Source of the DNA: Bacteroidales bacterium
Lineage (GTDB): Bacteria > Bacteroidota > Bacteroidia > Bacteroidales > UBA10428
Length of the DNA stretch: 37,454 nucleotides
NCBI GenBank assembly: GCA_016938235.1
Contig: JAFGVA010000101.1
Span: 1 to 37,454 of the forward strand
Direction of reading: 5' to 3'
The notes under the pieces are model-generated. The model was not told the origin of the DNA. It worked only from the letters and a program-made list of their open reading frames with translations, and did no database searches. Both the position numbers and the translations under genes were made by a program. The first letter of the stretch is position 1. Each line of letters begins with the position of its first letter. Below are positions 119 through 34,474 of this stretch, one piece after another.

Positions 119-3100
119 ATGCGGGAACTAATGATTATAAATGCATCTGCAGGATCGGGTAAAACCTTTAACCTGACAAGGGAATTTCTTAAGCTGGTTG
201 TAAAAGATACATCTTACCAATACTTTAGAACCATACTTGCAGTGACCTTTACAAACAAGGCTACCGCCGAAATGAAAAAAAGAATTCTTGATGAATTGCA
301 TTTGTTGGCAAGTGGAAAAGAATCGGATCATTTAGAAGAACTTGTTAAAGTGACCGGGAAAGGTGAAAGCGAAATCAGAAAAAAGTGTTTCAACATTCTT
401 CAATATATTCTTCATGGTTATTCCTGGTTTAAAATTGAAACCATCGACACCTTTTTCCAGGGAGTAATTCGGTCTTTTTTAAGGGAATTAGGCATACCCG
501 GGCATTTTACTACCGAAATAGACACCGCGCAATTGCTTGATGAAGCGGTGGATTCTTTTCTTGATTTGCTTGAAAACGACCAGCAAATGCTTCAGTGGCT
601 AATGGAGCACATAGAAACCAAAATTGAAAACGAGAAAAACTGGTCTGTAAAAAAAGAATTAATTCAAATCGGAAAGGATTTATTCAAAGAGGTTTATATC
701 GAAAATTCAAAAGAACTCGAAAAAGAGCTGAGCGACTTAACGGTAATTAACAAGTATAAAAACGAGCTAATTTTAATATCCCGGAACTTTGAGAAAGAAA
801 TTACCGGCATTGCTGCAAAGGCTATACATGAAATTGAAAGTCTTGGCTTAACCAATGAAGATTTCCATTTCAAAGCTTCGGGACCACAAAACTTTTTCTA
901 CAAAATAATTAACAAAGACTATAGTGAGCCAAACTCCAGGGTTACTGATGCGCTGTCGGATCCAAAAAAATGGGCAAATAAATCGGGTAACAGAAAAGCG
1001 GAAGTCGAAAACCTGGGAGAAAATAAATTAACTCCATTGGCTAACCAGATTATAGAATTCATCGAAAAACATCAGTCAAAATACTATGCTTCAAAGCTGG
1101 TATTAAAGCAAATATATTTGCTTGGATTAATTACCCGTATTTCTGAACAGGTAAAAACAATTAAGCAGGAAAAGGGCATAATGCTAATTTCAGATTCGGC
1201 TCCCTTTATTCACAGGATAATCGACCATAACGACACTCCCTTTATTTATGAAAAAATCGGGAACCGTTTTCATCACTTGCTAATCGATGAATTTCAGGAT
1301 ACCTCAAAACTTCAATATCAGAATTTTAAACCGCTTATAAGCAATAGCCTGTCGGAAGGTCATAAATGCCTGGTTGTTGGCGATATAAAGCAATCGATTT
1401 ATCGCTGGCGTAACAGTAACTGGGAAATTCTTGCCAAAAATATAAAACAGGATTTTGACCAGGCCTTTACCGAAATAAACCTCGACACCAATTTCCGCAG
1501 CTGTTCGGATATTATTCGGTTCAACAACTTGTTTTTCAGGGAAATGATAAATGAGTTTGAGCCAATTATACCCCAATCAAAGAAAGATTATATTCCGCTT
1601 AATGAATTATATAAAGATGCAGAACAAAACATTCCGGCAAAGAAAAAACCTAACGAAGGCTGGATACATTATGTTCCTTTCCCGAAGGAGGAATGCAGAC
1701 AAAACAAACTCTATTTCGGAGAAACTCTCGTTCGTGATATAAACCGGCTATTAGAAAAAGATTATCAACCGGGAGATATTGCAGTATTGGTAAGAAGTAA
1801 AAAAGAAGGCACCCTGATTGCCGAGTTTATTGTTGATGCCGATAAAAAAAATTTATTTTCTAAATCTGTTGGAGTAATATCGAATGAGTCACTTTTGTTA
1901 AACAACTCAATAGCGGTTAAAACACTTATTGCAGCATTAAAATTCACTTACGATACCGATGATAAGTTAGCCGCAGCTGAACTACTTTCCTCATTCATCA
2001 ACCTGAAAGGTGAATCACAGGAGGAAGTAAAATTTCCGCCAGGTATTCTCAATCCAATGTGCCTAGATGAATTAATCAAACCCGGGTTTTCAGAGCAGTG
2101 TAAAGCAATCCGTAACGAAGGATTATTCCTTCTGGTAAAAAGACTGGTTGAAATGCTTAACTTAAATTCTGTAATAAGCGAAACTGTTTATCTCGACTCG
2201 TTTCTGGATATTGTTTACCAGTATAGCAATTCTGAAATAAATGACATTTATGGTTTTCTGGAATACTGGAATGATGAAGGATCCGAAAAAACCATTTCAG
2301 CAGCTGAAACATCAGGAGCAATCAGAATACAGACAATACATCGCTCAAAAGGTTTGGAATATCCGGCTGTAATAATCCCCTTTACCAACTGGGACATTTA
2401 CCCAAAAACAAACTCTTTACTTTGGATTAAACCCAATTCTGAACCATTCAACAAAATACAGGTTCTTCCGGTTTCAATAACAGGGGAACTGTCAAAAAGC
2501 GACTTTTCAGAACAATATTCCGAAGAAGAATATCATACCCTAATCGATAACCTGAATGTGCTGTATGTGGCCTTAACCAGGGCTGCCAATTGCCTGCTTA
2601 TCTATTCAAACACTTCAGGTGACAAGAAAAATATTCTTGGAAAACTTGTTGAAAATGTTTTTAAAAAGATCGATAATCAGTTTAATAATTCAAAAGAAAT
2701 TGAAGGTTTTTCGTTTGGCGAAATTCCTCCTGTTAAAAAAGAAAGCAACTCAGCAAATGTTCTTTACCTCGAGAATTCAGACTCGGAATTTAAAATTCCT
2801 GACATCAGAATAAAATGGCAGGCCGAGGAATTTCTAAGAAAAAAGGAACAAAAAGACCCAAGAACTTTGGGAAAAATTTTCCACTCAATAATGGAAGATA
2901 TTAAAACCAGTATGGATGTAGATTTCGCGCTAATGAAAGCCCTGCACACCGGAATAATTGATAAAAGTGAATTGCAGGATTTTAAACAAATCTTAAATGA
3001 TGCGCTCAGTTATTCCGAAGCTAAAAACTGGTTCAGTAACAAATACAAAATATTAACCGAAGCTTCTATTTTACTGCCGGAGGGAAGTACCAGAAGACCA

Positions 3101-3289
3101 GACCGGATATTAATTTCAGAAGATAGTGTAATTGTTATCGATTATAAATTCGGACAGGAAGAAGAAGAGTCAAAACATAAAAAGCAAGTTTCGAACTACA
3201 TGAAGCTTTTAAGCGATATGGGCTATAAATCTGTTCAGGGTTTTATCTGGTATGTGTTCGAAAAAGATATTGTGGAGGTAATATCATGA
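119..3289 (+). CDS. addA: AddA-type UvrD helicase / PD-(D/E)XK exonuclease
   Basis: ATP-dependent helicase-nuclease subunit that resects double-strand DNA breaks for recombination, acting with the AddB-type protein encoded two genes downstream. Visible motifs are Walker A (NASAGSGKT, residues 8-16), Walker B/motif II (DEFQDT, about 390), motif V-like IHRSKGLEYP (about 740), motif VI LYVALTRA (about 815), and a C-terminal RecB-type nuclease core with RRPDRI (about 992) and IDYK (about 1005). The length of 1056 aa is normal for the family. The start is uncertain: ATG at 119 gives four extra residues, while ATG at 131 gives MIINASAGSGKT, which resembles the short N-termini usual in Bacteroidota homologues. 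A TACTTTTA -7-like box at 107-114 would also favour the later start. The stop overlaps the next gene's ATG, indicating translational coupling. Confidence 0.9.
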   Translation: MRELMIINASAGSGKTFNLTREFLKLVVKDTSYQYFRTILAVTFTNKATAEMKKRILDELHLLASGKESDHLEELVKVTGKGESEIRKKCFNILQYILHGYSWFKIETIDTFFQGVIRSFLRELGIPGHFTTEIDTAQLLDEAVDSFLDLLENDQQMLQWLMEHIETKIENEKNWSVKKELIQIGKDLFKEVYIENSKELEKELSDLTVINKYKNELILISRNFEKEITGIAAKAIHEIESLGLTNEDFHFKASGPQNFFYKIINKDYSEPNSRVTDALSDPKKWANKSGNRKAEVENLGENKLTPLANQIIEFIEKHQSKYYASKLVLKQIYLLGLITRISEQVKTIKQEKGIMLISDSAPFIHRIIDHNDTPFIYEKIGNRFHHLLIDEFQDTSKLQYQNFKPLISNSLSEGHKCLVVGDIKQSIYRWRNSNWEILAKNIKQDFDQAFTEINLDTNFRSCSDIIRFNNLFFREMINEFEPIIPQSKKDYIPLNELYKDAEQNIPAKKKPNEGWIHYVPFPKEECRQNKLYFGETLVRDINRLLEKDYQPGDIAVLVRSKKEGTLIAEFIVDADKKNLFSKSVGVISNESLLLNNSIAVKTLIAALKFTYDTDDKLAAAELLSSFINLKGESQEEVKFPPGILNPMCLDELIKPGFSEQCKAIRNEGLFLLVKRLVEMLNLNSVISETVYLDSFLDIVYQYSNSEINDIYGFLEYWNDEGSEKTISAAETSGAIRIQTIHRSKGLEYPAVIIPFTNWDIYPKTNSLLWIKPNSEPFNKIQVLPVSITGELSKSDFSEQYSEEEYHTLIDNLNVLYVALTRAANCLLIYSNTSGDKKNILGKLVENVFKKIDNQFNNSKEIEGFSFGEIPPVKKESNSANVLYLENSDSEFKIPDIRIKWQAEEFLRKKEQKDPRTLGKIFHSIMEDIKTSMDVDFALMKALHTGIIDKSELQDFKQILNDALSYSEAKNWFSNKYKILTEASILLPEGSTRRPDRILISEDSVIVIDYKFGQEEEESKHKKQVSNYMKLLSDMGYKSVQGFIWYVFEKDIVEVIS

Positions 3290-4235: not shown

Positions 4236-7136
4236 ATGGTTATGAGCCACCCATATAAGCCCTTTTTAAAGCAGGTTGCCGAATATGTGTATGAACATTA
4301 CAAAAATAATATGCACGAGCTTAGTATCATTTTCCCCAATAAAAGAGCTCGTCTATTTTTTAATAAGTATTTAACCGAGATTACCGTTAAGCCCATTTTC
4401 TCGCCAGCTTATTACACCATTAGTGAGTACATGCAAAAACTATCGGGCGAAGTTCTGGCTGACCAGTTCACACTGCTTTTTACACTTTACGAAGTTTACA
4501 TTCGTATTTCCGGATCTAAGGAATCTTTTGATAATTTTCTCTTTTACTGCGAAATGCTTCTTGCCGATTTCGACGATATAGACAAATACCTTGTGAACCC
4601 GGAGCATTTATACCAGAACCTCTATGAATTAAAGGAACTAGAAGCCTACCACGATTATCTTACTGAAGAACAGTTGAAGGCAATCTTGCAATTCTGGAAG
4701 GTATTTACCGAAAATAACCCGGATTCGCCAGAAAAGAAGAATTTCTCCAGTCTTTGGCTGGTTCTGAAAAAGATATATTTCGAATTTAACAAAGAACTCG
4801 ACAAGCAAGGTATAAGCTACGAAGGTAAAGCCGCCCGAAAGGCAATAGAGAAACTAGCTAAGGGCGAAACAGAAATACAGGAAGATAATGTGCTGTTTGT
4901 TGGATTCAACGCGCTGAATAAATGTGAGGAAAAACTGTTTAAACATTTAAACGACAATAAAAAAGGAAAGTTTTTTTGGGATCACGATGAATATTACATC
5001 GAAAAAGGAGAATTCCATGAAGCTGCTTTTTTCCTGAAAACATTAATTAGGGATTTCCCGAAACCCTTTGATTTCGAAACCGATAATCACAACCTAAAGA
5101 AAGGTAAAAATATCAGAATTATTGATATCCCGACACAAACCGGACAGGCAAAAGCATTACCCGAATTGATGAAGAATCTGCCGGCAGACTGGCTGAAAGA
5201 ACCATCGGAAACGGCAATAGCCCTTGCCGATGAATCCTTGTTAATTCCGGTTCTCACTTCGCTTCCGGCCGACATCAAAGAGGTAAACATATCTATGGGT
5301 TATCCGCTTAAAGATTCGCTGGTATATAACTTCATAAACATTCTTCTCGATTTGCACAATAACAAACGGGCAGCTGCAGGTTCAGAACTATTCTACCATA
5401 AAGATGTTATTCGGCTTATACAACATGGCTTCATGCGAACATACCTGGAACATAAACTTCAGGAAATTTCGAAGGAGATACAAAAGTCTAATCTGATATT
5501 TGTTCAACTATCGTGGTTAAAAGAAAAACACGCTATTTTTGGACAGTTTTTGCAAAAAGATATTGCTGCCGGAAACTTTACAGAATACCTGATTCAGGTA
5601 TTAGACAATGTTCCTGAGGCTCTTGCAAGCCTTAACGAAAAAAGCCGGGAAATTGAAAAAGAAGCACTGGCAAGAATAATGGGCCAGCTCCGCAGAATTA
5701 ACGATGTTTTTTCCAGCTCAAAAATTGATTATTCGTTCCGAAGCCTGGTGAAATTAATTGCTAAGGTGTTGCAGGGAACTTCTATCCCTTTTAATGGTGA
5801 ACCTCTTTCTGGTTTGCAAATAATGGGCATACTCGAAACCAGAACCCTTGATTTTAAAAATCTTATTGTACTGTCGATGAATGAGGGCACTTTCCCTAAA
5901 TCAGGAAATGTTCCATCGCTTATTCCGTATACTTTACGAAATGCATTTAAACTGCCAACCGTTGAGCACCAGGACGCAATATTTGGCTACTATTTTTACA
6001 GATTATTACAAAGAGCCGGGAATATTCAACTTGTTTATTGCTCATCGGTAAACGATGCACAGAAAGGGGAACCCAGCAGGTTTATTCAGCAAATTGATTA
6101 TGAACCCCTATTTAAAACCGAAAAGCTTACCCTGGGATATAAAGTTTATCCGCAATCAGTAAAAAGTATTAAAGTCTGTAAGTCTGCCGAAACCAGAAAT
6201 ATTTTAAAACATAAATATTGTGGCGAAAATTCCAGGCTTATGTCGCCAAGTGCGATAAATACCTACCTAAACTGCCAGCTTCGGTTTTATTTCAGATATA
6301 TTGCAGGAATACCCGAGCCTGAAGAAATTCTGGAAGAAGTTGAAGCTAACACGCTGGGAAGTATTTTGCACAAGTCCATGCAGATTCTATACTCCAAAAT
6401 CATAAATAAAGTTAGTAATAAAGAAGACTTTGAGTATATTAAGAAAAATAAAAAAAGCATAGAAGATGCTGTTATTCAGGCATTCTGGGAAGAATACATT
6501 TCACCGGATGGCAAAAAAGAATTTCCCGGAGTCGATAAAGCTGAAATAAAAGGTAAAAACATACTGGTAAAGCTTGTAATTATTAAGTATGTAAACCAGC
6601 TTATCGACTATGACAGCCAAAATGCACCTTTAACTATACTGAGCCTTGAAGATATACATGAGGCAGAATTAGCTATTGATGATGAGATTACCCTAAAAAC
6701 AGGCGGTTATATCGACAGAATTGATAGCAAGGAAGGTTTTATAAGAATTGTTGACTATAAAACCGGTAAAACAGATCAGGAATTCTTCTCGGTTGAAAAT
6801 CTTTTTACAGATGGTGCAGATAAAAGAAACAATGCTGCTTTTCAGATTCTTCTCTACTCGCTGGTATATTCAAAAAACAATAAGTCTGAAAAAACAGTGC
6901 CGGCTTTGTTTTTCCTGAGAAATCTGGGTAATAAAAACTATCTTCCTAACCTCAGGATGGGAAAAAGTAAGGAAATAATTGCTGATTATTCTCCCTTACA
7001 TGATGAGTTCTCAGAAAAATTGATGGAAACCCTGCAGGATATTTTTTCAGAAACCGGTGTATTTATGCAAACCGAAAGTGAAAAATACTGTTCTTATTGT
7101 CCTTATATTAACATCTGCAACCGAAATAAAAAATAA
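4236..7136 (+). CDS. addB: AddB-type PD-(D/E)XK nuclease with Fe-S cysteines
   Basis: Second subunit of the AddAB-type double-strand break resection complex. The C-terminal third carries the nuclease: a cysteine in LNCQLRFYFRY (about 680), GSILHKSM, then GYIDRID and RIVDYKTGK, and a terminal CSYCPYINIC cluster about ten residues from the end. The four cysteines match the 4Fe-4S staple known in AddB/RecB-like nucleases. The N-terminal region (FPNKRARLFF, about residues 33-42) lacks a recognisable GxxGxGKT loop, so this subunit probably does not hydrolyse ATP at that site. This is usual for distant AddB homologues in Bacteroidota. The length is 966 aa. ATG codons at 4236 and 4242 are both possible starts. 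It lies 8 bp after the radical SAM gene. Confidence 0.87.
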   Translation: MVMSHPYKPFLKQVAEYVYEHYKNNMHELSIIFPNKRARLFFNKYLTEITVKPIFSPAYYTISEYMQKLSGEVLADQFTLLFTLYEVYIRISGSKESFDNFLFYCEMLLADFDDIDKYLVNPEHLYQNLYELKELEAYHDYLTEEQLKAILQFWKVFTENNPDSPEKKNFSSLWLVLKKIYFEFNKELDKQGISYEGKAARKAIEKLAKGETEIQEDNVLFVGFNALNKCEEKLFKHLNDNKKGKFFWDHDEYYIEKGEFHEAAFFLKTLIRDFPKPFDFETDNHNLKKGKNIRIIDIPTQTGQAKALPELMKNLPADWLKEPSETAIALADESLLIPVLTSLPADIKEVNISMGYPLKDSLVYNFINILLDLHNNKRAAAGSELFYHKDVIRLIQHGFMRTYLEHKLQEISKEIQKSNLIFVQLSWLKEKHAIFGQFLQKDIAAGNFTEYLIQVLDNVPEALASLNEKSREIEKEALARIMGQLRRINDVFSSSKIDYSFRSLVKLIAKVLQGTSIPFNGEPLSGLQIMGILETRTLDFKNLIVLSMNEGTFPKSGNVPSLIPYTLRNAFKLPTVEHQDAIFGYYFYRLLQRAGNIQLVYCSSVNDAQKGEPSRFIQQIDYEPLFKTEKLTLGYKVYPQSVKSIKVCKSAETRNILKHKYCGENSRLMSPSAINTYLNCQLRFYFRYIAGIPEPEEILEEVEANTLGSILHKSMQILYSKIINKVSNKEDFEYIKKNKKSIEDAVIQAFWEEYISPDGKKEFPGVDKAEIKGKNILVKLVIIKYVNQLIDYDSQNAPLTILSLEDIHEAELAIDDEITLKTGGYIDRIDSKEGFIRIVDYKTGKTDQEFFSVENLFTDGADKRNNAAFQILLYSLVYSKNNKSEKTVPALFFLRNLGNKNYLPNLRMGKSKEIIADYSPLHDEFSEKLMETLQDIFSETGVFMQTESEKYCSYCPYINICNRNKK

Positions 7137-7990: not shown

Positions 7991-8671
7991 TTATTCTTCT
8001 TTATACAATCCGGGTCTTCTCTCCTTTGTTCGCTGAACCGACTGCTCATGCCTCCATTCATGAACTAATTTATCGTTTCCTGAAAGTAAAATTTCAGGTA
8101 CTTTCCAGCCCTTATAATTTGCTGGTCGCGTATAAACAGGTGGAGCCAGCAGGTTATCCTGGAATGAATCCGATAAAGCTGAAGTTTCATCGTTCATAAC
8201 ACCTGGAATCAGTCTTATAACTGCATCAGCAATAATTGCAGCCGCCAATTCACCTCCTGTAATAACAAAATCACCTATCGAAATCTCCTTTGTAATTATA
8301 TGATCGCGGATACGCTGATCAACCCCTTTATAATGACCGCAAAGTATTAGCAGGTTTTGATACCCCGACATGGTGTTTGCCATCTTCTGATCGAATAATT
8401 CACCATCGGGCGACATATAAATTATTTCCTCATACTCACGTTCAGATTTAAGCTTGTTAATTAAAATTTCTATGGGTTCAATCATCATTACCATTCCGGC
8501 ACCACCGCCATAGGCATAATCATCAACCTGCTTGTGTTTGTTTGTTGCATAATCCCTGATATTGTGAACAACAATTTTGGCAAGTCCTCTTTGCGAAGCC
8601 CTGTTAAGAATTGAATGACTGAAAGGGCCTTCAAGCAATTCGGGCAATACCGTTAATATATCAATTCTCAT
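7991..8671 (-). CDS. trmD: tRNA (guanine-N1)-methyltransferase TrmD
   Basis: SAM-dependent methyltransferase forming m1G37 in tRNAs read next to the anticodon, which prevents +1 frameshifting. It starts [13 protein letters not shown], as TrmD proteins do. The trefoil-knot region is visible: a YGGGAGMVM segment near residue 56, [12 protein letters not shown] (about 110-121) and [13 protein letters not shown] (about 132-144). The C-terminal domain ends [19 protein letters not shown]. The 226 aa length is normal. It reads from a likely -7 box (8688-8695) very close to its ATG, implying a very short leader. In many bacteria trmD sits with rpsP, rimM and rplS; none is present here. Confidence 0.96.
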
Positions 8672-8687
8672 CCAAATTTATTTTAGG

Positions 8688-8720
8688 CAAAGATAAGGAT
8701 TGAAAAACAAAACAGGCAAA
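8688..8720 (-). promoter_or_regulatory. Probable trmD promoter
   Basis: Read on the minus strand, 8695-8688 is TATCTTTG, a perfect fit to the Bacteroidota -7 consensus TAnnTTTG. A TTTG that could serve as the -33 element lies at 8720-8717, 21 bp away. The trmD ATG is only about 16 bp downstream of the -7 box, so the leader would be very short. Confidence 0.55.
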
Positions 8721-8760
8721 AACAACTTTTATGCAGCTAAGAATAAAGAAACACGGACAT

Positions 8761-9192
8761 TTATTCAGAAAACACCGAATGACTTAATAGCAGTTCAAGT
8801 TCTTCTTCAAATGAAATTCTGCGATGGTAGTCAAACTGATTCGATAAGCTGGTAATGAGGTTCTCTTTTTGTGAATAATGGTAACTTAAAACAATGAAAT
8901 TGGTTTCCCATCCATTAAATTCAGGAAAAACCGATTTTTCGCGCCTCAAAAAATCAATGGTGTTTTGTTGAATTTCCCGAACAATCTGACCTAATGAAAT
9001 TTCAAGGTTAATTTCAATAACAACATGTATATGCTGATTATTACCGGTAACAAGCACAGGTTTGCACTTCATGTTAAAAAGCATACCGTGGATGTAATTG
9101 TACAGAATATCCTGGTTTACCCGGGTTAAAAATTTTTTTTCACTATTGGCCGAAAAAACAATGTGGAAAAGGTTTTGGTTAACAAGTTGCAT
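8761..9192 (-). CDS. IS200/REP-associated (Y1-type) HUH protein, apparently lacking the catalytic Tyr
   Basis: 143 aa, the size of IS200-type and REP-associated transposases, which cut and rejoin single-stranded DNA with an HUH metal site and one tyrosine. The N-terminal core FHIVFSAN, the central HIH (residues 54-56, in NNQHIHVVIEI) and the C-terminal NQ...HRR...FEEEL block are recognisable. In related Bacteroidota proteins the last block reads roughly KYIxNQxxHHR, with the tyrosine as nucleophile. Here the aligned residues are TSLSNQ (114-119), so Ser115 (codon AGC) stands where the Tyr is expected. The reading frame is otherwise intact and has its own likely promoter (9235-9264). It could be an inactivated relic or a domesticated DNA-binding protein. 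No clear subterminal hairpins were found at its flanks. Confidence 0.8.
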   Translation of the reverse strand: MQLVNQNLFHIVFSANSEKKFLTRVNQDILYNYIHGMLFNMKCKPVLVTGNNQHIHVVIEINLEISLGQIVREIQQNTIDFLRREKSVFPEFNGWETNFIVLSYHYSQKENLITSLSNQFDYHRRISFEEELELLLSHSVFSE

Positions 9193-9234
9193 TAAATTAA
9201 TGATTAATAGTTTCTTGGGTTACATACAAATAAA

Positions 9235-9264
9235 CAAAAATAATTCTTGAATTTAAACCTCAAA
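9235..9264 (-). promoter_or_regulatory. Probable promoter of the HUH protein gene
   Basis: On the minus strand, 9242-9235 reads TATTTTTG (exact TAnnTTTG -7 element) and 9264-9261 reads TTTG, a fitting -33 element 18 bp upstream. The ATG lies 42 bp downstream of the -7 box. A clean promoter argues the gene may still be expressed. Confidence 0.55.
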
Positions 9265-9316
9265 TATACCTTTGATGAAACCTTAAATTCAATACATAAA
9301 AGTCGAAATTATATAG

Positions 9317-9330
9317 GTCGTATATACAAC
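9317..9330. promoter_or_regulatory. Near-palindrome in the divergent intergenic region
   Basis: GTCGTATATACAAC is a 14-bp palindrome with one mismatched pair, centred on a perfect GTATATAC. It lies between the divergent HUH gene and the DUF349 gene. It could be an operator, but such AT-rich palindromes also arise by chance. Confidence 0.2.
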
Positions 9331-9399
9331 GATTGTAAAAATTTAGGATAAAATAAAAATGTTAATAATCGTTATAATTAATATAGTTTGGGTAAATCC

Positions 9400-9430
9400 T
9401 TGTACGGTTTGATGGTATTAATTATTTTCG
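9400..9430 (+). promoter_or_regulatory. Possible promoter of the DUF349 gene
   Basis: TATTTTCG at 9423-9430 matches the TAnnTTTG -7 element at all but one defined position. TTG at 9400-9402, 20 bp upstream, could be the -33 element. The ATG follows 32 bp later. The mismatch keeps this tentative. Confidence 0.3.
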
Positions 9431-9462
9431 TAGATATTATAGATTAGTAAAATCAGCATATT

Positions 9463-11652
9463 ATGACTGAAAAAGATCCTAAAGACTCTGTTCAGAATGA
9501 ACAATTCGGTTCTACCGAAAATACGAATGATGAAACTTTTGACAGCTCCACAAAAGCTCAGGAGAACAAGGCGCTGAGTGATCATGAACAAAGCGCTGAA
9601 TCTGAATCTGAATCTGAAACAACAGAAGAAACTCCGGAAGAAACTCCGGAAGAAACTGTTGTACCTATTACTGAATCAGGAGAAAATACATCTGAAGGGA
9701 AAGAAGTAACCGCTCCTGAAGCAGAAACCGGTTCTGATGCAACAGCAAGTGTGGCTGAAGAAGGTGATAAAGTTACTGAGGAAACAAAAGTTGTTGCACA
9801 ATCCGATGAGGAAATTACAGAAAACAATACTGACTCTGCAAGTATTCCTTCATCCGAACCTGTTGAACAGCCCACTAAAAAAGTGGGAGAATCAAACGAG
9901 AATAAGGTCCAAGACCATCTTCCATCATTAGCCGAAATTGACTTTTCGAAGCTTACTAAAGAAGAACTGGTTGACCGATTAAAATTATATATTTCAGAAT
10001 TTCCGATTGAACAAATAAAAGACCATGTCGAAACCATTCGATCTGTTTTTTATAAAAAACATAACGAGGAAATTGCTGACATTCACAAAAAATTTATTGA
10101 CGAGGGGGGCACCGAGGAAGACTTTAAAGTAGAAGATTCGCCGGTTGAAATTGCCATAAAAGACCTTATTAATCTATATCGCCAGAAAAGAGACGAGCTT
10201 TCAAAATCGCAGGAAGAACTGAAAGATGTTAATTTAAACGCTAAATATGAGATTATTGAGGCCATAAAAGAACTGATTAACAGCCAGGAGTCTTTGAACC
10301 AGACCTTTCAGGACTTTAGAAATCTGCAGGACAGGTGGCGCGAAATTGGCCCTGTTCCCCAAAAGAATGTGAAAGACCTGTGGGAAAATTATCATTATCA
10401 TGTTGAAGCATTCTACGATTATATAAAAATTAATAAAGAACTCCGTGACCTCGACTTCAAGAAAAACCTGGATGCCAAGCTTACTTTATGCGAAAAAGCA
10501 GAAGAATTATTAATTGAACCATCAGTTGTTGAAGCTTTCAGAAAACTGCAGGTTTTGCATGATCAATGGCGCGAAATCGGTCCAGTTCCTGCTGATAAAA
10601 GAAATGAACTTTGGGAACGCTTCCGTGATGCAACTTCCAAAATAAACCATAGGCATCAGGAATATTTTGTTAACCTGAAAGATGAACAAAAAAACAACCT
10701 TCAGGAAAAAACTGCTCTCTGTGAAAAAGCTGAAGAAATCGCGGCTGTTGAGATAGACAACGCCAAACTTTGGGAAGAAAAATCGAGAGATCTTATAGAA
10801 TTACAAAAAGTCTGGAAAACAATAGGCTTTGCTCCTAAGAAACATAACACCAAGATTTATGAACGATTCAGGGCTGCATGCGATAAGTTCTTTAATCAAA
10901 AACGTGAATTTTTCGCCAGCAACCGTGAAGAACAAGAAAACAATTTACAGCTAAAAACAGAGCTCTGCATTCAGGCTGAAGCTTTACAAGACAATACCGA
11001 TTGGAAAAAAACCACAAATGATCTGATAAAACTTCAGAAACGGTGGAAAGCTATCGGACCTGTACCAATGAAGAGTTCTGATAAAATCTGGAAACGTTTC
11101 AGGGCTGCATGTGATACATTCTTCAACAACAAATCAAAATTTTTCGAAAATATCGATTCGAGATACGAAGACAACCTAAAACATAAAAACGAGCTTATTG
11201 AACAAATTAAAAACTTTGAACTCTCAACTAATATTGAGGAAAACCTAAAAAAGCTGAAAGAATTTCAAAGAGAGTGGTCCGAAATTGGATTTGTACCCAT
11301 TAAGCTTAAAGACGAAATTCAGGAAAAATACCGCGAAGCCATCAATCAAAAATTTGACCAGCTTAAGGTTGACGATAGTAAAAAATCGGTTCTGAAATTC
11401 AGAAGCCGGATTGAAAGTATAGCATCGAAACCTAATTCTGAGAAACGACTGTCTATGGAGCGCGATAAATGCTATAACAGACTAAAACAACTCGAAAATG
11501 ATATAACTCTTTGGGAAAACAATATCGGATTCTTTGCGAATTCGAAAAATGCAGAATCGATGATTTCTGATGTGGAACAAAAGATAGAATCGGCAAAACA
11601 GAAGATTGAAGACCTGAATGAGAAAATAAATATTATAGACGATTACGATTAA
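9463..11652 (+). CDS. DUF349-repeat coiled-coil protein with acidic N-terminus
   Basis: 729 aa in two parts. Residues 1 to about 150 are low-complexity, rich in Glu, Thr and Ser, strongly acidic and probably disordered. The DNA contains a 12-bp repeat (GAAGAAACTCCG, two full copies and a partial one at 9625-9657) and three TCTGAA units just upstream. From about residue 280 on there are roughly five helical DUF349 repeats of about 70 aa, each with a W(R/K)xIGPVP or W(K/S)xIGFxP signature (RWREIGPVP, QWREIGPVP, VWKTIGFAP, RWKAIGPVP, EWSEIGFVP). A coiled coil closes the protein. There is no signal peptide, so it is probably cytoplasmic. The biochemical role of DUF349 in Bacteroidota is not known to me. 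It stands alone, 136 bp before pyrG. Confidence 0.88.
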   Translation: MTEKDPKDSVQNEQFGSTENTNDETFDSSTKAQENKALSDHEQSAESESESETTEETPEETPEETVVPITESGENTSEGKEVTAPEAETGSDATASVAEEGDKVTEETKVVAQSDEEITENNTDSASIPSSEPVEQPTKKVGESNENKVQDHLPSLAEIDFSKLTKEELVDRLKLYISEFPIEQIKDHVETIRSVFYKKHNEEIADIHKKFIDEGGTEEDFKVEDSPVEIAIKDLINLYRQKRDELSKSQEELKDVNLNAKYEIIEAIKELINSQESLNQTFQDFRNLQDRWREIGPVPQKNVKDLWENYHYHVEAFYDYIKINKELRDLDFKKNLDAKLTLCEKAEELLIEPSVVEAFRKLQVLHDQWREIGPVPADKRNELWERFRDATSKINHRHQEYFVNLKDEQKNNLQEKTALCEKAEEIAAVEIDNAKLWEEKSRDLIELQKVWKTIGFAPKKHNTKIYERFRAACDKFFNQKREFFASNREEQENNLQLKTELCIQAEALQDNTDWKKTTNDLIKLQKRWKAIGPVPMKSSDKIWKRFRAACDTFFNNKSKFFENIDSRYEDNLKHKNELIEQIKNFELSTNIEENLKKLKEFQREWSEIGFVPIKLKDEIQEKYREAINQKFDQLKVDDSKKSVLKFRSRIESIASKPNSEKRLSMERDKCYNRLKQLENDITLWENNIGFFANSKNAESMISDVEQKIESAKQKIEDLNEKINIIDDYD

Positions 11653-33496: not shown

Positions 33497-34474
33497 CTAA
33501 TAGGTGTTCAACCATTTATATCTTCGGGCTGTATCTCCAATGCGCATAGAGAAAACAAACTCATGAGAACCAAAATTGGTTTTATGTATTGAACCAAAAT
33601 TATAATCGAATGCATAACCAATATAATAGTTTTCGATTATTACACCTCCAAATACAGATAATGCAGAACCCGTTCTGAATCCAAGCCCTCCCCAATACAT
33701 ACCGTCATAAACACATTTAGCATTTAAATCGAACTGAGCACCAGATTTCTCAGGTATTTTTAATAAAAATGAAGGTTCTATTTCCAAATTACGTGTTACA
33801 CCAATGTTGTAACCTCCAACCAGGTTATGTTGTCTTACAAGCTTGTATTCACCTTCCGCATTTTTGCCAAACTGACCACTGGAATTAAACAGCTGCATGG
33901 TTGAATACCCTCCATATAATGACCTTGAGGTATAATAAACCCCAAAATTCGCATCAGTAATCCAGATTGACTGTTTTTTGCCTGTTAAAATGTCGTCCGG
34001 CGTATCATCCGCAAAAATAAACTGGTCACCCTGAATCTTCAATTGAAATAAAGAAATACCCAATCCGAACGAAAGTTGAGAGTTCCCCAGGCTAATGTGA
34101 TGTGAATAAGTACCGTTTACACCCGTTTTATCTATAGGGCCATTCAAGTCATTGAATAAATAAGCACCCCAACCTGTATTACCAGATTTTGTTTTACGAG
34201 GTTTCTTTTTCCTTACAGATAGTTTGCTTAGTATAAAGCTGTTTCCAAGTATTCTGCTATCAATTGTAATTGCATGCGTTTTTGGTGTTCCCTTAAAACC
34301 CACCCATTGTTCCCTGGCAATCAGGTTTATTGAAGTATATCCCTCACTACCAGCAACCGCTGGATTATATATAAACTTGTTCATTGAATAGTTTGTATAA
34401 CTTGGAAACTGTTGTGACCAACCTTGTTTCAAACAAACAAACAAGAACAGTATAATTACACTCTTTTTTAACAT
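33497..34474 (-). CDS. PorP/SprF family outer-membrane protein of type IX secretion
   Basis: 325-aa beta-barrel outer-membrane protein of the PorP/SprF family. These proteins help attach or secrete T9SS-exported adhesins, as SprF does for SprB in Flavobacterium. A signal peptide (about 1-20, ending WSQ) is followed by the family hallmark PSYTNYSMNKFIYNPAVAG and REQWVGFKGTPKTH (about 55-68). The rest is beta-strand rich and ends in an aromatic-rich strand region (YIGYAFDYNFGSIHK, FSMRIGD). It lies 27 bp after the large adhesin gene on the same strand, the normal adhesin-then-SprF order, so it most likely serves that adhesin. A long hairpin follows its stop. Confidence 0.92.
   Translation of the reverse strand: MLKKSVIILFLFVCLKQGWSQQFPSYTNYSMNKFIYNPAVAGSEGYTSINLIAREQWVGFKGTPKTHAITIDSRILGNSFILSKLSVRKKKPRKTKSGNTGWGAYLFNDLNGPIDKTGVNGTYSHHISLGNSQLSFGLGISLFQLKIQGDQFIFADDTPDDILTGKKQSIWITDANFGVYYTSRSLYGGYSTMQLFNSSGQFGKNAEGEYKLVRQHNLVGGYNIGVTRNLEIEPSFLLKIPEKSGAQFDLNAKCVYDGMYWGGLGFRTGSALSVFGGVIIENYYIGYAFDYNFGSIHKTNFGSHEFVFSMRIGDTARRYKWLNTY

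Follow-up and report, generated by a model that had tools for sequence, protein, structure and literature searches.

The question raised by the locus described here is whether a Y1 protein of the HUH type that has lost its nucleophilic tyrosine can still be an enzyme and, if so, which residue would have taken over the catalytic role. The gene concerned (8761-9192, minus strand) lies in a stretch of 37,454 nucleotides from a Bacteroidales bacterium (GenBank assembly GCA_016938235.1, contig JAFGVA010000101.1, positions 1 to 37,454) that we refer to as the window. An initial annotation, made from the DNA letters alone, had described the product as an HUH protein with serine in place of the catalytic tyrosine and had suggested that it might be a domesticated, nuclease-dead binder of DNA or hairpins. 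We tentatively prefer another interpretation, to which we assign a probability of roughly 0.45, namely that the product may be a TnpA-Y1 subclass 1.2 protein that has been domesticated and in which the catalytic tyrosine has moved by seven residues, from position 115 to position 122. The argument depends on the following features of the gene.

8761..9192, minus strand: Y1/HUH protein gene, 143 residues, catalytic tyrosine replaced; open reading frame (ORF) intact; PF01797
9025..9033, minus strand: HIH metal motif, residues 54-56; His54 and His56 conserved among relatives
8968..8970, minus strand: residue 75, Gln, at a near-invariant Lys of relatives; alignment column
8848..8850, minus strand: Ser115 (AGC), site of the nucleophilic tyrosine; family and profile alignments
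8836..8838, minus strand: Gln119, aligned with the metal ligand Gln131 of ISHp608 TnpA; profile alignment
8827..8829, minus strand: Tyr122 (TAC), candidate for the displaced nucleophile, where the NQxxHH motif has its first His; covariation

The missing tyrosine

The ORF proved to be as first claimed in its frame and coordinates, and it is intact and encodes 143 residues; the translation also bears out the HIH metal motif at residues 54-56, where the residue preceding His54-Ile-His56 (residue 53) is Gln and the consensus is Asp. The product scores 36.5 bits against the Pfam family Y1_Tnp (PF01797), above the gathering cut-off of 23, and 24.9 bits against the NCBIfam model for IS200/IS605 transposases (NF033573), below the equivalog cut-off of 55. 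Ser115, in TSLSNQ, aligns on the tyrosine of KYIxNQ, and the segment from Trp95 to His123 runs without gaps in the 25 proteins aligned. A profile alignment to the TnpA of ISHp608 (2a6m) places column 115 on Tyr127 and Gln119 on Gln131, a residue whose role as a metal ligand is given in the accessible portion of Quentin et al. 2018 (PMC6006769). The two alignments together confirm that the serine occupies the position of the nucleophile. A serine common to the whole clade, as had also been envisaged, is not what is found, since the orthologues carry three different residues, namely Ser (window), Leu (G003) and Trp (G008).

How exceptional this is among relatives can be read from a census, a non-random sample made up of the top-ranked matches obtained when the window protein, A1, the L123 protein and A4 served as queries. 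The searches gave 267 distinct rows; 15 of them, the split-frame L130 included, were dropped because one of seven positions was gapped, and the remaining 252 were scored. Position 115 is Tyr in 244 of the 252. Within these Tyr115 proteins invariance reaches 90% or more at nine positions; His54 is present in 243 of the 244, His56 in all 244 and Lys75 in 241. The eight non-Tyr115 proteins, including the long-branch L123 and L225, have without exception kept His54, His56, Trp95, Gln119, His123 and Glu131. At position 75 the three orthologues have Gln, Leu and Gln, and the lysine is kept in L209 and in both of the non-Tyr115 proteins that retain His122. Because residues 75, 115 and 122 have changed while the metal residues are kept, the catalytic centre is remodelled at three sites with its metal site spared.

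The AlphaFold model of the window protein (20 aligned sequences; mean predicted local distance difference test score, pLDDT, 77.9) has the IS200/IS605 TnpA fold. Its top match among solved structures is 2ec2 (Z 13.4, root-mean-square deviation [rmsd] 3.0, 106 residues), with which the IS608 and ISDra2 entries are tied. The IS608, ISDra2, 2ec2 and 2f4f entries span Z 12.6 to 13.4 and rmsd 2.8-3.6 Å over 104-109 residues; the RAYT structure 4er8 gives Z 8.6 and rmsd 3.3 Å over 111 residues.

A second tyrosine at position 122

Tyrosines 103, 106 and 122 had been named as possible substitutes at the active site. The numbering had to be mended to 104, 106 and 122, and Tyr122 alone is common to all three orthologues. 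Of the 244 Tyr115 proteins, 240 have His at position 122. The 252 scored proteins divide into 242 with Tyr115 and no Tyr122, 6 with Tyr122 and no Tyr115, 2 with both tyrosines and 2 with neither; Tyr122 is thus found in 6 of the 8 non-Tyr115 proteins versus 2 of the 244 Tyr115 proteins (Fisher p 2e-9, with rows treated as independent). When all columns and residues were scanned for covariation with the loss of Tyr115 (1472 tests), Tyr122 ranked first, with a Bonferroni value of 3e-6. The Bonferroni value for column 122 is 0.002 with the trmD clade (the three orthologues) counted as one, and 0.056, still the top value, without that clade.

The six proteins that combine Tyr122 with another residue at 115 are the three orthologues, L123 (Phe), L209 (His) and L225 (Phe); both tyrosines are present in L172, L357 and the split-frame L130. 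L209 (G126:C1:219917-220312) has the two residues exchanged, as His115 (CAT) and Tyr122 (TAT); it retains Lys75 and the metal residues, and the proteins closest to it in the tree have Tyr115/His122. The very divergent Phe115/Tyr122 protein L123/L281 (G040:C32:13566-13982) has flanks that look by eye like cdaA and ribBA. L172 (G252:C1:1796208-1796612) and L225 (G395:C4:12310-12696) share one genus code and have short tails, and their flanking ORFs differ by eye.

The number of origins was judged from trees for which columns 115 and 122 were excluded and column 75 was included. The quick tree (185 rows) calls for 6 changes to non-Tyr115 and 5 to Tyr122, and the careful tree (a 56-row subset) for 6 and 4, respectively. 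A grouping of all six Tyr122/non-Tyr115 proteins as one clade was rejected by the approximately unbiased (AU) test (p 0.0016), and the test also disfavours a group that unites L123 and L225 with the trmD clade (AU p 0.026); the placement of L123 and L225 is unsure because of their long branches. The six proteins fall in about four lineages. In simulations of changes along the branches of the quick tree, scored by parsimony counts, 4 shared branches were reached in 0 of 20,000 runs with plain branch lengths and in 13 of 20,000 with squared lengths. The careful tree makes L225 (Phe115/Tyr122) the sister of the double-Tyr L172 (99/99), and this placement suggests that in their lineage Tyr122 was gained first and Tyr115 lost after; the quick tree pairs L225 with L189 instead (82).

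The retention of the metal residues, together with the gain of Tyr at one position in about four lineages, leads us to the wider interpretation, which we hold at somewhat short of even odds, that a nucleophile has been relocated within the HUH active site repeatedly in one order (the named relatives are recorded as Bacteroidales) and that the lineage at the trmD locus may be its conserved domesticated product. Among the titles and abstract openings listed in searches of open-access literature, none concerned a displaced tyrosine in Y1 proteins.

A maintained gene beside trmD

The neighbours of the gene in the window are as follows.

7991..8671, minus strand: trmD, downstream neighbour in three species; PF01746
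9463..11652, plus strand: DUF349 repeat protein gene, divergent upstream neighbour in three species; PF03993
7385..7981, plus strand: DUF308-like membrane protein gene, beyond trmD in three species; 20.3 bits, the Pfam cut-off of 25 not being reached

The orthologues in two other species of the genus (60% and 51% identity to the window protein) come from the Bacteroidales metagenome-assembled genomes UBA10428 and Zod_Metabat.800. The conserved locus that the initial annotation had looked for beside trmD is present, with the gene in the same position in the three species, flanked by trmD and the DUF349 gene and with the DUF308-like gene past trmD. Among the nine genomes of the genus, eight have a trmD match and the gene adjoins trmD in three of those eight. 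The other five have the DUF349 gene there in every case (one of them cut by a contig end, expectation value [E] 0.011) and the DUF308-like gene in four, and a search for relics of the gene in these five gave no match better than E 2.9. On the species tree the insertion at trmD needs 2 changes, and bootstrap trees compatible with a single origin (1 change) amount to 0%. No match to the neighbours at the trmD locus was seen at 13 other loci of the family, with up to 1.5 kb of flank examined at each.

The window gene and its G003 orthologue differ by 0.36, 0.19 and 0.60 at the first, second and third codon positions, close to the values for trmD (0.28, 0.15 and 0.60). In unconstrained simulations that started from the window gene, with 0.3, 0.6 and 1.0 changes per site, 11, 8 and 0 of 600 frames remained open and mean identity fell to 52%, 31% and 17%; the observed identities are those given above, at saturated third positions. 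Given the intact frames, the codon-position pattern and the outcome of the simulations, the gene at the trmD locus is maintained under constraint at the protein level. The purifying selection that had been anticipated is borne out to this extent; the ratio of nonsynonymous to synonymous divergence (dN/dS) is itself limited to one pair, since dN by the Nei-Gojobori method (NG86) ranges from 0.32 to 0.49 among the three orthologues and dS is finite only for the window and G008 (dN 0.39, dS 1.90), the two other pairs being saturated. The claim of an excellent promoter fared less well: a sigma-70-like scan of 8600-9480 gave one match, at 9292-9263 on the gene's strand and upstream of it (9/12 bases), which is at chance level because shuffles average 4.5 such matches. 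Boxes of the Bacteroidota type were inspected by eye only.

In its own genome the window protein has a single match with an E value of 1e-3 or lower, and the next is at E 0.43, so that no second close copy was found. Y1_Tnp matches with E no higher than 1 in a Pfam search of this genome number 5, of which 2 exceed the cut-off; L080 and L081, the two that were read of the four besides the window gene (one above the cut-off and one weaker), have by eye the class-2-like motifs YIHNNP and YIHQNP. The 791-base locus was not found a second time in the genome, the next best match having E 0.16 among the 40 of 72 candidates that were scored; direct repeats are absent at the locus and the inverted pairs, 11 in number, are weak. 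Domestication of the protein is supported, because it is the sole close copy in its genome, occupies one locus in three species, is under constraint and has no repeated copy of its locus. Its position next to trmD may have regulatory significance or may be incidental.

Relationship to known Y1 and HUH proteins

A scan of 84,980 species gave six loci, i.e., the two orthologues and four Tyr-bearing proteins; further scans made for depth of alignment gave 15, 1 and 0 loci. Separate scans for viral relatives of the window protein and of its nearest kin gave none. The four Tyr-bearing proteins closest to the orthologues (L035-L038) have 43% identity and keep the tyrosine, and no trmD is seen by eye among their flanking ORFs. 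In the quick tree the three Tyr-less orthologues form a clade (Shimodaira-Hasegawa-like approximate likelihood ratio test, SH-aLRT, 100) within a 7-row set that includes L035-L038 (99). The motif Y---Q--HH is present in 25 of the 26 relatives aligned besides the three orthologues, the remaining one having Arg for the first His.

This motif is the one that the accessible portion of PMC6006769 gives for TnpA-Y1 subclass 1.2, a group with a median length of 148 residues that occurs mostly in Bacteroidetes and Cyanobacteria, at low copy and generally without insertion sequence (IS) ends. The window protein resembles subclass 1.2 in its Y1 fold, its length (143 vs a median of 148 residues), its HUH motif, Trp95, the Q and last H of Y---Q--HH, common ancestry by the tree, its occurrence in Bacteroidota and its low copy number, and no IS ends are seen at its locus. 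It differs in that its lineage has the motif S/L/W---Q--YH, that all three orthologues have a shorter C-terminal tail, as judged by eye from alignments, that the near-invariant Lys75 is gone and that the gene has a fixed place beside trmD. Judged by sequence, the window protein is a member of subclass 1.2 by descent and falls outside its definition by the Y motif.

The TnpA proteins of the IS200/IS605 family (ISHp608, ISDra2) supply the top solved-structure matches of the model and their metal residues align with it, but the window protein lacks a tyrosine at the Tyr127 position, scores under the NCBIfam IS200 cut-off and has no adjoining tnpB. The MOBF relaxases are large plasmid proteins with a different HUH topology. 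What they offer is a precedent, described for TrwC in the available part of PMC10359608, for an HUH enzyme with two working tyrosines 8 residues apart (Y18 and Y26). The TnpA-REP/RAYT proteins (class 2) are similar to the window protein in being domesticated, housekeeping-like Y1 proteins, according to what is accessible of PMC8266576, and in the fold match to 4er8. They are unlike it in their Y---NP motif (PMC6006769, in part), where the window protein has S---Q, and the RAYTs described in PMC8266576, as far as the text is available, carry the catalytic tyrosine; in addition, genome-wide REP palindromes at the flanks, a trait of class 2, are not seen, since the 791-base locus gave no second copy at the search sensitivity used.

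Possible mechanism and alternative explanations

Relocation of the nucleophile would mean that a TnpA-Y1 subclass 1.2 protein became a single-copy gene held between trmD and the DUF349 gene, with the His54/His56/Gln119 metal site retained while Tyr115 was lost. Tyr122 would have been gained by a change from His to Tyr, double-Tyr forms being known, after which Tyr115 and often Lys75 were discarded. Lying seven residues further on, or about two turns if the helix continues, Tyr122 would then become the nucleophile, provided that it reaches the metal site. The same pair of changes would have arisen in about three further lineages, one of which has a sister with both tyrosines. As to function, we infer binding of structured single-stranded host DNA: the protein would recognize a hairpin and might nick it, with or without subsequent resealing, by forming a covalent link to Tyr122. 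No hairpin or other DNA target was found by the copy search with the 791-base locus or by Rfam in the window.

Several points weigh against such a relocation. Three of the four lineages (the three orthologues, L123 and L225) no longer have Lys75, which canonical activity might require. In the AlphaFold model Tyr122 lies just past the predicted helix (110-119; the next is 122-125), at a local pLDDT of ~65; the corresponding helix in the predicted model of the Tyr-bearing L036 is 106-120. In TnpA dimers the two protomers swap their alpha-D helices. Two of the non-Tyr115 proteins, with Phe and Asp at 115, retain His122, and the change from His to Tyr is an easy one since it takes a single one-base transition. 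The census searches with profile A4 were made with the first four non-Tyr115/Tyr122 rows already in the profile. A test on independent pairs gave 3 the same way, 0 opposite and 1 undecided (median p 0.25), which is too few pairs.

The nearest alternative, against which we lean though not strongly, is that the protein is a nuclease-dead domesticated binder of DNA or hairpins. The losses of Tyr115 and Lys75 would then have ended cleavage, the fold and the metal residues would serve folding or binding and perhaps local regulation, and Tyr122 would be a residue for binding or packing. Lys75 is indeed gone along with Tyr115 in three lineages, a single-copy, constrained gene at one locus is what such a binder would present, and in the accessible portion of PMC8266576 cleavage product was absent when the tyrosine was changed to Phe in three TnpA-REP proteins (one of the three as "not shown"). 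However, all three metal residues are kept in 8/8 non-Tyr115 proteins with no evident need for them in binding, and a dead binder by itself leaves unexplained both the top-ranked gain of Tyr at 122 and the double-Tyr sister. The domestication proposed in the initial annotation stands (single close copy, fixed locus, constraint), but its nuclease-dead state is not established, with the metal residues in 8/8 and Tyr122 in 6/8 of the non-Tyr115 proteins.

It is improbable, in our estimate, that the protein acts as a metal-dependent hydrolase in which metal-activated water nicks the hairpin without a covalent tyrosine link. The persistence of His54, His56 and Gln119 without Tyr115 would fit such an enzyme, but the covariation of Tyr122 is left unexplained by it, and we know of no such precedent in the Y1 family. 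Least credible of all is that the gene is the functionless remnant of a mobile element that died recently. The missing canonical tyrosine might speak for this, as might the absence of the gene at trmD from five of the eight genomes of the genus in which trmD was matched, but the intact frames at one locus in three species and the protein-level constraint seen in the codon-position differences and the simulation exclude it.

Other features of the window

Elsewhere in the window, 119-3289 encodes a UvrD-type helicase that carries a PD-(D/E)XK nuclease domain, and one gene separates it from 4236-7136, which encodes a 966-residue protein that is AddB-like by eye. A type IX secretion membrane protein, PorP/SprF (PF11751), is encoded at 33497-34474. 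Rfam gave zero matches within the window, and PADLOC likewise gave none.

Implications

In the portion of PMC6006769 that is available, Y1 proteins without the conserved core motifs are set aside as likely non-functional, and 722 of 924 are taken as likely active. If Tyr122 is not the nucleophile, the gene beside trmD would represent a conserved nuclease-dead HUH protein. If Tyr122 is the nucleophile, a filter on the core motifs would throw out working enzymes, the family would have a second layout of its active site, and the natural double-Tyr forms would be a stepwise record of a catalytic residue in the course of moving.
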